DNA from: an uncultured Rubellimicrobium sp.
GTDB lineage: Bacteria > Pseudomonadota > Alphaproteobacteria > Rhodobacterales > Rhodobacteraceae
Reading direction: 5' to 3'
NCBI GenBank assembly: GCA_902805995.1
Contig: CADCUU010000395.1
Span: 1-11,874, forward strand
DNA length: 11,874 bases
Part shown: positions 464-3,069 of the stretch, piece after piece
Layout of the letters: each line of letters begins with the position of its first letter
How positions within the stretch are numbered: position 1 is the first letter of the stretch
The notes under the pieces: generated by a model
Database searches by the model: none
The model's input: the letters and a program-made list of their open reading frames with translations, nothing else
What the model was told of the DNA's origin: nothing
Made by a program: the position numbers and the translations under genes

Positions 464-754
464 ATGGCCAATACGCCCCAGTCCGAGAAGCGCGCCCGCC
501 AGGCGCAGGCGCGCACCATCGTGAACAAGATGCGCAAGTCGCGCATCCGCACCTACCTCCGCAAGGTCGAGGAGGCGATCGCCTCCGGCGATCAAGACGC
601 CGCGCGCGAAGCGCTGCGCCAGGCTCAGCCGGAGCTGATGCGCGGCGTGTCCAAGGGCGTGTTCAAGAAGAACACCGCCTCCCGCAAGATTTCGCGGCTC
701 TCGTCGCGCGTGAAGGCCGTGGGCGTCGCCGCCTCGGCACAAGCCACCGTCTGA
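464..754 (+). CDS. rpsT: 30S ribosomal protein S20
   Basis: S20 is a primary 16S rRNA-binding protein of the small ribosomal subunit. The 96-residue product has the classic S20 opening [15 protein letters not shown], a lysine/arginine-rich helical body ([22 protein letters not shown]) and the diagnostic [19 protein letters not shown] segment near the C-terminus. Length is a little above the usual 85-90 residues because of a short Ala-rich tail ([10 protein letters not shown]). The Shine-Dalgarno is weak: only GCGGGA at 447-452, 11 nt before the ATG. The gene appears monocistronic, with a candidate TTGACA promoter upstream and an intrinsic terminator 25 nt downstream of the stop. Confidence 0.97.
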
Positions 755-778: not shown

Positions 779-808
779 GGGCGCGTCCTGAACGGGACGC
801 GCCCTTTT
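779..808 (+). terminator. Intrinsic terminator of rpsT
   Basis: A perfect 10-bp GC-rich stem (GGGCGCGTCC at 779-788 with GGACGCGCCC at 795-804) closes a 6-nt loop and is followed at once by TTTT (805-808). It lies 25 nt after the rpsT stop. It should insulate the intergenic region and dnaA from rpsT transcription. Confidence 0.9.
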
Positions 809-863
809 GTCGTGTCTGCGCGGGCGTCGCTGCGCGCGAGGCGTCGTCGTGCGAGGATCGGGC

Positions 864-890
864 GGCCTTGCCCAGAGGCAGGCCAAGGCC
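864..890. repeat. Inverted repeat GGCCTTG/CAAGGCC
   Basis: GGCCTTG at 864-870 and CAAGGCC at 884-890 are perfect 7-bp arms around a 13-nt spacer. It is not followed by a T run on either strand, so it is not an obvious intrinsic terminator. It is the first of a series of dyads in the rpsT-dnaA spacer. Role unknown. Confidence 0.5.
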
Positions 891-910
891 TGACCTCCGC
901 ACTTGGCACG

Positions 911-986
911 TCAGGATAACACCCTCTTCGCGTCCCCCAAGTCGAGCCCGCCGACCTGACCCCCTGACTCGGAGTTCCGAGGATAA
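911..986 (-). promoter_or_regulatory. Pair of DnaA-box-like sequences (TTATCC core)
   Basis: On the minus strand, 911-919 reads TTATCCTGA and 978-986 reads TTATCCTCG. Each shares 7 of 9 positions with the consensus TTATCCACA, including the whole TTATCC core. Both point the same way and are 67 bp apart, at the left edge of the GANTC cluster. They could be weak DnaA sites for oriC or for dnaA autoregulation, but degenerate matches like these can also occur by chance. Confidence 0.3.
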
Positions 987-1036
987 GGCAGCTGCCGTCA
1001 CCCATTTCGAACTGATTCCTGTCTTGGCAGACCTTA

Positions 1037-1111
1037 CGGCGTGAAACGCCGATCCCTGCAAAGGCTGGTCCCTCCTCGTTTCACCGGGCCTGCTACGGCC
1101 CGCTTCGGTGA
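1037..1111. repeat. Overlapping inverted repeats with mutually exclusive pairings
   Basis: Local hairpin A is CGGCG (1037-1041) with CGCCG (1047-1051) around TGAAA. Local hairpin B is TCACC-GGGCC (1081-1090) with GGCCC (1097-1101) and GGTGA (1107-1111), with a 5-nt bulge on the 3' side. A longer-range perfect 8-bp dyad, GTGAAACG (1041-1048) with CGTTTCAC (1077-1084), uses bases from both, so it excludes them. A CGCTTCG direct repeat is also present (1101-1107, 1114-1120). It may be an operator array, a cruciform-forming site or part of a transcript; nothing here identifies a known RNA family. Confidence 0.45.
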
Positions 1112-1203
1112 GTCGCTTCGACCTTTGCCGATTCTCTGCTGAGTCATTGAGGTTCCTGCAGATTCGCCGCCCCGAGTCGGTCCTCGCCAGCCCGGTTCCG
1201 CTG

Positions 1204-1221
1204 CTTAGCTGAAAAATTTCC
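1204..1221. other. Short AT-rich patch in the GANTC cluster
   Basis: The stretch containing GAAAAATTTC (1211-1220) is the only clearly AT-rich segment in the rpsT-dnaA spacer. It sits between the two densest groups of GANTC sites (1110-1178 and 1232-1309). It could serve as an unwinding element or promoter UP-like sequence, but it is much shorter than a usual origin unwinding region. Confidence 0.25.
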
Positions 1222-1227
1222 GCCGTC

Positions 1228-1283
1228 GTGCGACTCCGTCACAAGCCTGTGACAGGACTCGGCTGAATCCTGAGGAGTCGCGC
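1228..1283. other. Potential three-way-junction structure built around GANTC sites
   Basis: The outer stem pairs GCGACTCC (1230-1237) with GGAGTCGC (1274-1281), extendable by a G-T wobble and a G-C pair to 1228/1283. Directly inside lie two hairpins: GTCACA (1238-1243) with TGTGAC (1248-1253), and AGGACTC (1254-1260) with GAATCCT (1265-1271), the latter with one mismatch. Only two bases are left unpaired next to the outer stem. Four GANTC sites (1232, 1256, 1265, 1275) lie within the stems, two of them facing each other in the outer stem. It could be a DNA cruciform, a nested set of protein-binding dyads, or a structured RNA. The sequence does not say which. Confidence 0.45.
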
Positions 1284-1425
1284 AGGTCGGGTTTCGCGAG
1301 CCCCGATTCGGAGGGGCGCAGCCCTCGGTCAAGCGAGTTGTTCAGTTGCGAGACCTCACGGGCTTGCTACCTTCTCCCTGCGATTCCAAGCGTTCCTGGG
1401 GGAATGATGGGATCGGCGCGACGCC

Positions 1426-1461
1426 GGTGCCGCATCCCTGCCAGGATGCTTCTCCGGCACC
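1426..1461 (+). repeat. Long bulged hairpin in the dnaA upstream region
   Basis: GGTGCC (1426-1431) pairs with GGCACC (1456-1461), and immediately inside GCATCC (1432-1437) pairs with GGATGC (1444-1449) around a 6-nt loop. This gives 12 base pairs in all, with a 6-nt bulge (1450-1455). If the dnaA transcript starts upstream of this point, it would be a stable element of a long 5' leader; otherwise it may be an operator-like dyad. Confidence 0.4.
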
Positions 1462-1485
1462 ATGATGACACCGGGCCCTGCCAGG
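1436..1485. repeat. Direct repeat of a near-palindromic 10-mer, CCCTGCCAGG
   Basis: CCCTGCCAGG occurs at 1436-1445 and 1476-1485, exactly 40 bp apart (close to four helical turns). Its core CCTG-C-CAGG is an odd palindrome, the shape expected of a dimer-binding operator half-pair. The left copy overlaps the loop of the 1426-1461 hairpin. No matching regulator is identified. Confidence 0.3.
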
Positions 1486-1627
1486 TCCGGTCGTGGGATA
1501 CATCGCGCCGATATGGGTTGGGCTGCGCTGCCACGCGGCCCCGTCCGACACGCGCCGTCCTTTGGGCGGGGCGCTGTGCCTTGCATCCATCCCCCCGGGA
1601 ACGCCTTAGGGCGCGACACTGGGGCGA

Positions 1628-1658
1628 GGTCCTGGGGGACCGGCAGGCTGTGGCCTGC
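1628..1658 (+). promoter_or_regulatory. Tandem hairpins just upstream of the dnaA ribosome-binding site
   Basis: GGTCC (1628-1632) pairs with GGACC (1637-1641) around a 4-nt loop. One base later GCAGGC (1643-1648) pairs perfectly with GCCTGC (1653-1658) around TGTG. The dnaA Shine-Dalgarno GAGGA (1666-1670) begins 8 nt later. Placement so near the ribosome-binding site suggests an effect on dnaA translation or mRNA stability, but this is inferred. Confidence 0.4.
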
Positions 1659-1677
1659 TCGATGCGAGGACGATGAC

Positions 1678-3069
1678 ATGGCAGACGGCGCAGGCTTCGG
1701 GGCGATGCTGGACAACGGGGCGGAGGCGCTCTGGGCGCAATGCCGCGCGACGCTCAAGGACCGCGTGGGCGCCGGGAGCTTCCAGAGCTGGATCGCGCCG
1801 CTGCATCTCGCTGCCATCGAGGACGGGGTCGCCACCCTCGTCGTGCCGACGGCCTTCCTGGGCTCCTATGTCGCGCGCAACTTCCAGGAGGACATCCTGA
1901 CCGTGCTGGCCCAGGCGGGCTATCCGGCGAGCCGCCTCGTCTTCGCGCCGCAGGGCCGGGTCATCGCCGGGGCCACCCCGGTCGCCGCTACGGCCCAGGT
2001 TCAAGCGCCAGCCGCCGTGGCCGAGATGCCGGAGGAGGGGAGCCGCCTTGACCCCCGACTGACCTTCGACCGCTTCGTGGTGGGCAAGTCCAACGAACTC
2101 GCGCACGCCGCCGCGCGCCGCGTGGCCGAGGGGCATACGGGCTTCAACCCGCTCTTCCTCCATGGCGGCGTGGGCCTGGGCAAGACCCACCTCATGCAGG
2201 CCATCGCGCAGGAGATGCGGGCACGGAACCCGCAGGCCCGTGTGCTGTACCTGTCGGCCGAGCAGTTCATGATCCGCTTCGTGAGCGCGCTTCGCGACCG
2301 CAAGATGATGGACTTCAAGCAGGCCTTCCGCGCCGTGGATATCCTGATGGTGGACGATATCCAGTTCATCGCCGGCAAGGACTCCACGCAGGAGGAGTTC
2401 TTCCATACGTTCAACGCGCTGGTCGATCAGGGCAAGCAGATCGTCCTGACGGCCGATCGCTCCCCCGTGGAGATCGGGTCGCTCGAGGAGCGGGTAACCT
2501 CGCGGCTGCAGTCCGGCCTTGTGGTGCAGGTCCATGCCGCGGACTACGAGCTTCGGCTGGGCGTCCTTCAGGCGAAGCTCGCCGTGGCACAGAGCACGGA
2601 GCCCAACCTGCGCATGGCAGAAGGGGTGCTCGAATTCCTCGCGGCCCGCGTGACGTCGAACCTCCGCGTCCTTGAAGGCGCCCTCACCCGGCTCGTGGCG
2701 CAGGCCAATCTCGTGGGGCGCGAGGTCACGCTCGACCTCGCCCGCGACACCCTGGGCGACGTGCTGCGCGCGAGCGACCGCAAGGTGTCCATCGAGGAGA
2801 TCCAGCGCAAGGTGGCCGAGCACTACCACATCCGCTTGGCCGACCTGATCGGCCCCAAGCGGCTGCGCAGCTTCGCACGGCCCCGGCAGGTGGCGATGTT
2901 CCTCGCCAAGACCATGACCAGCCGGTCGCTGCCCGATATCGGCCGCCGCTTCGGCGGGCGTGACCACACCACCGTCATGCATGGGGTGCGCCGGATCGAG
3001 GAGCTGCGCGTCGCGGATTCGCAGATCGCCGACGACCTAGAGATGCTCCGCCGCGCCCTGGAGGCCTGA
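1678..3069 (+). CDS. dnaA: Chromosomal replication initiator protein DnaA
   Basis: DnaA binds origin DnaA boxes as an ATP-bound oligomer, melts DNA and recruits helicase; it is also a transcription factor. The 463-residue product has all four domains: domain I (residues about 15-90), a short Ala/Gln-rich linker, an AAA+ core and a C-terminal DNA-binding domain. Visible motifs are Walker A GGVGLGKT (163-170), Walker B LMVDD (223-227), the sensor-1 segment VLTADR, the LEERVTSRLQSGL arginine-finger region and the DnaA-box recognition motif RDHTTV (428-433). I chose ATG 1678 because GAGGA lies 7 nt upstream and the protein then has the family's usual length. An in-frame ATG at 1462 would add 72 unrelated residues. 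Upstream is a long structured spacer with a GANTC cluster, which suggests cell-cycle control. Confidence 0.97.
   Translation: MADGAGFGAMLDNGAEALWAQCRATLKDRVGAGSFQSWIAPLHLAAIEDGVATLVVPTAFLGSYVARNFQEDILTVLAQAGYPASRLVFAPQGRVIAGATPVAATAQVQAPAAVAEMPEEGSRLDPRLTFDRFVVGKSNELAHAAARRVAEGHTGFNPLFLHGGVGLGKTHLMQAIAQEMRARNPQARVLYLSAEQFMIRFVSALRDRKMMDFKQAFRAVDILMVDDIQFIAGKDSTQEEFFHTFNALVDQGKQIVLTADRSPVEIGSLEERVTSRLQSGLVVQVHAADYELRLGVLQAKLAVAQSTEPNLRMAEGVLEFLAARVTSNLRVLEGALTRLVAQANLVGREVTLDLARDTLGDVLRASDRKVSIEEIQRKVAEHYHIRLADLIGPKRLRSFARPRQVAMFLAKTMTSRSLPDIGRRFGGRDHTTVMHGVRRIEELRVADSQIADDLEMLRRALEA

Follow-up and report, generated by a model that had tools for sequence, protein, structure and literature searches.

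The spacer between rpsT and dnaA in an uncultured Rubellimicrobium sp. of the Rhodobacteraceae carries a dense array of GANTC, the site methylated by CcrM, and with moderate confidence we regard this array as the element of the dnaA promoter region that senses methylation. The DNA analyzed here, hereafter the window, is a stretch of 11,874 nucleotides that makes up contig 395 of a 3.03-Mb draft genome (504 contigs, 85% complete). In it, rpsT, encoding ribosomal protein S20 (464..754, + strand; Pfam PF01649), is followed by a spacer of 923 bp (755-1677) and by dnaA (1678..3069, + strand; Pfam DnaA_N, Bac_DnaA, and Bac_DnaA_C). The array spans 966..1386, without strand, and has 13 GANTC starts, at 966, 1014, 1110, 1130, 1141, 1161, 1174, 1232, 1256, 1265, 1275, 1305, and 1382. 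In the mechanism that we propose, CcrM would methylate the GANTC adenines late in the cell cycle, passage of the fork would leave those of the array hemimethylated, and hemimethylation would alter the activity of the dnaA promoter, most likely via GcrA and RNA polymerase, so that dnaA output would be tied to fork passage. Array methylation, the place where transcription starts, the protein that reads the sites, and the direction in which expression changes are predicted parts of this account; the observations on which it is built are the density and conservation of the sites, the variation of their middle base, the presence of ccrM-type and gcrA genes, and the absence of origin features from the spacer.

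The 13 start positions had been listed in an earlier note on this DNA, made from the letters alone, and every one was found to be correct on recount. Its impressions of density were likewise accurate: the approximately 19 GANTC that it counted outside the array are exactly 19, for a window total of 32; the ten sites that it placed within 200 bp are found in 1110-1309; and the 15- to 20-fold local excess that it claimed corresponds to 30.9 vs. 1.66 GANTC per kb elsewhere in the window, or ~19-fold. The window as a whole is poorer in GANTC than expected (32 vs. a shuffled mean of 58.8). Simulation of region 966-1386 with its own dinucleotide make-up gave a mean of 2.7 sites and a maximum of 10, with 13 or more in 0 of 20,000 simulations, and among the 16 palindromic pentamer classes of the form XYN-Y'X', GANTC was the sole far outlier (13 vs. 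1.13 from the whole-window rate). When the whole spacer (755-1677) was used, a weaker test, the 13 GANTC compared with a simulated mean of 4.6 and were matched in 11 of 20,000 simulations. This spacer is a dip in G+C content (0.61 vs. about 0.70), and it holds 4.5 times the number of GANTC expected from base composition.

The earlier note had proposed a comparison with related Rhodobacteraceae, and the enrichment is present there: GANTC was denser in the spacer than in its flanks in 34 of 34 family spacers from outside the genus, with means of 8.1 vs. 1.6 per kb. These rpsT-dnaA spacers comprise 22 loci (L002-L023), assigned to the family by record names alone, and 12 of 17 same-family genomes; excluded were L089 (genome G010, with dnaA at the contig start and no spacer), G015, G021, and G024 (no locus returned), and L110 (G011), which has 3 GANTC in 859 bp (3.5 vs. 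2.2 per kb). Each family spacer ends at the position onto which the first residue of the window DnaA projects, so that as many as ~54 bases ahead of the true start are possibly missing. Outside the family the picture was mixed, with 0 to 9 GANTC per spacer. Placed side by side (with two or three around L014-L016 omitted), the family spacers share a layout of GATTC, about 20 bp further on GAGTCAAG, then GTTGC ... TTGCTA and GC-GATTC-AC, followed by a G-rich leader start.

Three GANTC sites of this layout, designated a, b, and c, were also counted automatically in 41 spacers, of which 36 could be anchored on site c (those without an anchor were L023, L090, L091, L099, and L101). Site c (1382..1386, no strand in this and the other GANTC features) reads GATTC in 24 of the anchored spacers, GAGTC in 7, GACTC in 3, and GAATC in 2; its presence in them is true by construction, the anchor being a GANTC, and a few anchors slipped. 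Site a (1305..1309) lies 77 bp upstream of site c in the window, and in 31 of the 36 anchored spacers a GANTC precedes the anchor by 74-84 bp, the exceptions being L010, L017, L021, L022, and L094. The place of site b (GAGTCAAG in the family) is 1326..1330, where the window has the decayed form CGGTC, and b was kept in 17 of the 36. Inspection by eye shows the triplet in L090, L091, L021, and L094 as well, and sites a and b in L010, which makes the automatic counts conservative. The window thus retains sites a and c and has lost the middle site. Just upstream of site c is a conserved block that may represent a promoter-like core (1346..1372, + strand), TTGCGA ... CTACCT in the window and GTTGC ... 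TTGCTAGCTT in relatives; sites a and c bracket it in 31 of the 36 anchored spacers.

Judging from the sequences compared, the array is expanded within the genus. The spacers of sisters G002, G003, G004, G007, and G006 hold 10, 9, 13, 9, and 12 GANTC in 555-628 bp, so that an array of 9-13 sites is present in five of six sister species. An alignment of the window with five relatives (L083-L087, the more distant L088 being left out) contains five GANTC sites common to all six members and a sixth in five of them. Four sites form a genus-conserved block at 1232..1279 (1232, 1256, 1265, and 1275; spacing 24-9-10), with three of them in 6/6 aligned species and 1256 in 5/6. Of the 10 positions found in two or more aligned species, 4 vary in the middle base with GA..TC constant, as would be expected if selection acted on a CcrM site rather than on a longer motif. 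Seven further sites make up a species-specific upstream block (966..1178) within about 370 bp of extra spacer that the sisters do not have; window positions 800-1220 are present in one of eight genus genomes, its own, and the spacer is 923 bp long vs. 555-648 bp in six relatives. We considered and rejected a mobile or repeated element at 800-1220, as the segment is single copy in its own genome and found in none of the seven sisters. The remaining sister, G001, provided no dnaA locus for comparison, its dnaA being split; on its contig C5, dnaA and gidB are each in two pieces, probably through assembly errors.

The proteins required by the proposed mechanism are represented by candidate genes. 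The search for ccrM to which the earlier note had pointed recovered a ccrM-type gene in the window's own genome, a partial copy whose methylase activity is predicted: the 356-aa protein, cut at the contig end (vs. 369 aa in two relatives translated), has N6_N4_Mtase and RAMA domains, and the closest solved structure is 6pbd, Modification methylase CcrMI. A CcrM-type RAMA match was obtained in 8/8 genus genomes. The gcrA gene is present in the same 8/8, and binding of its product at the array is predicted. SeqA (PF03925) was found in 0/8, with a positive E. coli control. As a separate observation, beside ccrM in the window's own genome (L264, G000:C133, 1329-1785) seven GANTC occur in about 460 bp, six of them within 421 bp; this cluster is the densest GANTC place in 126 kb of 20 sampled contigs of that genome and seems to lie inside a neighboring coding gene that reads like RNase HII.

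In Caulobacter, dnaA transcription responds directly to the state of GANTC (PMC3973325), and methylated GANTC attracts GcrA, which interacts with RNA polymerase (PMC3667746). A chain from CcrM through GcrA to RNA polymerase would be the most economical account for the window, and control of dnaA transcription by the array, one of the roles suggested in the earlier note, is the reading that fits the anatomy of the locus. However, several points weigh against it. The at least 10 sites of the array are far above the one and two GANTC of the Caulobacter ctrA P1 and mipZ promoters (PMC3667746), and Brilli et al. gave averages of 0.4-1.5 GANTC per promoter and considered control not derivable from counts (PMC2877005). 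Plain promoter control also fails to explain why sister species have another array at their likely origin. One sister, G005 (L088), has just 4 GANTC in a 648-bp spacer, which is not significant; the truncated CcrM-type protein scored 618 bits with the ncbifam CcrM model, under the cut-off of 830; and a scan of 700-1750 for a sigma-70 consensus and for terminators gave zero matches, of which the lack of a sigma-70 match is the adverse part. Both the many kept sites and the origin array would be accounted for by a reader that binds hemimethylated arrays cooperatively.

Beside dnaA is a common position for the origin in other bacteria, and the first choice of the earlier note was that the array region is itself the replication origin. 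The spacer is indeed an intergenic G+C dip adjoining dnaA, and DnaA boxes with two mismatches exceed most simulations in some sisters (three in L087, reached in 0/200; two in L084, 8/200; two in L085, 18/200). However, DnaA boxes within one mismatch number zero in the window spacer and in 6/6 genus spacers, the two boxes with two mismatches in the window spacer were reached in 36/200 simulations, and no CtrA site (TTAA-N7-TTAA) was found there within two mismatches. The GC-skew check that the earlier note had named, applied to relatives, leaned against an origin at dnaA: in two nearly closed family genomes the sign change of the sampled skew lies away from dnaA, by about 220-250 kb (G020) and 460-510 kb (G016). 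The turn in G016, at 2.71-2.76 Mb, also misses gidB (2.907 Mb), and in G010 noise in the skew near 0 prevents gidB and dnaA from being told apart. In the genus contigs carrying both dnaA and gidB (G002:C36, G004:C3, and G007:C76) the skew is weak or changes many times and turns clearly neither at dnaA nor at the gap between maf and hemJ; the origin was therefore assigned from neighbor genes, DnaA boxes, and family-level skew. In genus genomes, DnaA-box-like sites concentrate instead at this maf-hemJ gap, with 4-5 two-mismatch boxes in 6/7 genomes vs. 0.1-0.9 expected (G005 has 1). It lies near gidB, about 95-174 kb from dnaA (G002, G004, and G007), and is the origin candidate in the sisters. 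We therefore consider an origin in the spacer itself highly improbable; the spacer is probably the dnaA promoter region instead.

For the Rhodobacteraceae, published work has located oriC from DnaA boxes, skew, and proximity to parAB (PMC6699656). For the present assignment, gidB and hemJ were identified by families TIGR00138 and PF03653, and maf, rho, mnmE, gidA, and parA by reading of translations. Two other markers were rejected. The hemE gene is on a different contig from gidB in 8/8 genus drafts and ~0.5-0.7 Mb from gidB in G010, G016, and G020, and the sole maf of the window's own draft adjoins infA-like and RNase E/G-like genes, as read from translations, and is thus a paralogue. Near this paralogue (L327, 2426-2475), four GANTC occur in 50 bp upstream of the infA-like gene. 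The family search returned no origin-type hemJ in the window's own draft, and the origin array is therefore seen in sisters only.

At the maf-hemJ gap, the seven sister genomes have 7, 5, 5, 8, 5, 8, and 11 GANTC in 369-423 bp, counts whose chance by base composition ranges from 2e-7 to 0.02. Three long sister contigs, together ~1.0 Mb, all have the dnaA spacer as their densest 421-bp place. On G004:C3 (312 kb) and G007:C76 (355 kb) the dnaA spacer and the maf-hemJ gap are the two densest, with 14 and 11 GANTC (next 6) and 10 and 9 (next 5), respectively; on G002:C36 (335 kb), dnaA is first with 11 and the gap joint second with 5. Clusters of methylase sites at both the dnaA promoter and the candidate oriC are thus present in sisters G002, G003, G004, G006, and G007, and 6 of the 12 candidate-origin GANTC positions common to two or more species vary in their middle base. 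Site distances in the window favor 10.5 bp, with a mean cosine of 0.42 for distances up to 65 bp (p 0.0165) and 0.63 up to 35 bp (p 0.0065). No such phasing was seen in 191 background pairs, and single arrays of G004 showed it weakly (origin p 0.05-0.28, dnaA p 0.03-0.20). Several array sets and periods were tested for phasing, and single-array values were used because the multi-species sets are non-independent; the 10.5-bp spacing is a hint only.

These paired arrays raise the alternative of sequestration, in which a protein would cooperatively bind the hemimethylated GANTC arrays at the origin and at the dnaA promoter once the fork has passed. This would delay re-methylation and prevent both re-initiation and fresh transcription of dnaA, much as Dam and SeqA do with another site and another reader. 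In E. coli, SeqA keeps both the dnaA promoter, with 8 GATC, and oriC, with 11, hemimethylated (PMC10073500). The second array in all seven sister genomes, its variable middle bases, and the lean of the window distances to the helical repeat all agree with such a system, and the SeqA-like reader imagined in the earlier note gains indirect support because the sisters carry a GANTC array at the likely origin too. SeqA itself, however, is absent from the genus genomes searched; GcrA, the known candidate reader, is encoded in all of them. Moreover, phasing is weak on single arrays, the origin array is known from sister species only, and the stretch upstream of hemJ holds 0-3 GANTC in 8/8 genomes outside the genus (1-3 in the five with a recognized maf or DnaA boxes; G009, a weak match, and G028-G033, from other families, were excluded). 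Sequestration thus appears unlikely to us. An explanation without methylation, by which the array would consist of sites for an ordinary repressor or activator with a GANTC motif, or would reflect mere tolerance of GANTC in non-coding DNA, has against it the excess of sites over base composition and over the remaining window, the fixed GA..TC with its varying middle base, which fits a CcrM site, and the ccrM-type gene; we judge it quite improbable.

Other conserved elements were noted in the spacer. Two features without strand lie in or near the genus-conserved block. An A/T run, GAAAAATTTC, is found at 1211..1220, and AAAATTTC is kept in 4/6 aligned species and in L088. A palindrome, GTCACA-AGCC-TGTGAC (GTCACAAGCCTGTGAC), occupies 1238..1253, flanked by two GANTC sites; it is identical in 4/6 aligned species and changed in L086 and L087, and its counterpart in L088 is GTCACA-CGGC-TGTGAC. 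It resembles the site of a dimeric regulator, and protein binding is possible. Downstream of the promoter-like core, positions 1376..1677 (+ strand) are the likely dnaA mRNA leader, which is predicted to be structured and to fold better than 100 shuffles (z -3.05). The consensus fold of six species (the window and L083-L087) comprises 92 pairs, and for 17 of them one or more sequences show a compensatory change; three of its hairpins have an identical CUGCCA loop in 6/6 species. This segment may act as a regulatory leader of dnaA; the Rfam search gave zero family matches in the window. Pairing of the CUGCCA loops with the start of dnaA (AUGGCAG in the window) was considered and rejected, as the other five aligned genus members have AUGGCC or AUGGCG.

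GANTC near replication loci has been described at other scales. A 2022 study found more GANTC around ori in four alphaproteobacterial orders, on a scale of hundredths of the chromosome (PMC9836097), and Brilli et al. tallied the GANTC that precede cell-cycle genes but drew no conclusion (PMC2877005). No description of paired GANTC arrays at dnaA and a DnaA-type oriC was found in a literature search that left out most subscription journals and saw its sources in part. A 2021 study of ctrA reasoned that a position near ter and few promoter GANTC might mean no major role for replication-driven methylation in Rhodobacterales gene control (PMC8116508). The dnaA promoter suggests otherwise, with GANTC kept across the tested family members and multiplied in one genus. 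If one protein reads both the dnaA and the origin arrays, origin sequestration in CcrM bacteria becomes a testable question. A bolder and rather doubtful proposal is that one Rhodobacteraceae clade arrived, by way of CcrM and GANTC, at the two-locus layout known from Dam and GATC in E. coli, and that a cooperative reader would keep both of its helically spaced arrays hemimethylated and silent after replication; if true, this would be a convergent, non-SeqA sequestration system in Alphaproteobacteria.

Among known systems, the dnaA promoter of Caulobacter crescentus under CcrM is similar in having GANTC in the dnaA promoter region, which is putative here, and ccrM and gcrA in the genome. It has a few GANTC sites, whereas 13 are found here, their register is conserved in the genus, and a second array occurs at the sisters' likely origin. 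The Dam/SeqA system of E. coli shares clusters of its own methylase's site at both loci, with helical spacing as a hint only; unlike it, the present system would use GANTC and CcrM without SeqA, and the origin array is found in sister species only. The repABC origins and promoters of alphaproteobacterial secondary replicons are enriched in GANTC; GcrA and CcrM have been implicated there, and a role like that of SeqA has been suggested (PMC11514494; PMC6090056). Secondary replicons of this type, such as Agrobacterium ori2, thus resemble the present case in GANTC enrichment at replication-control loci, but theirs are RepC origins, whereas here the arrays accompany a chromosomal initiator gene and, in relatives, a DnaA-type origin candidate.
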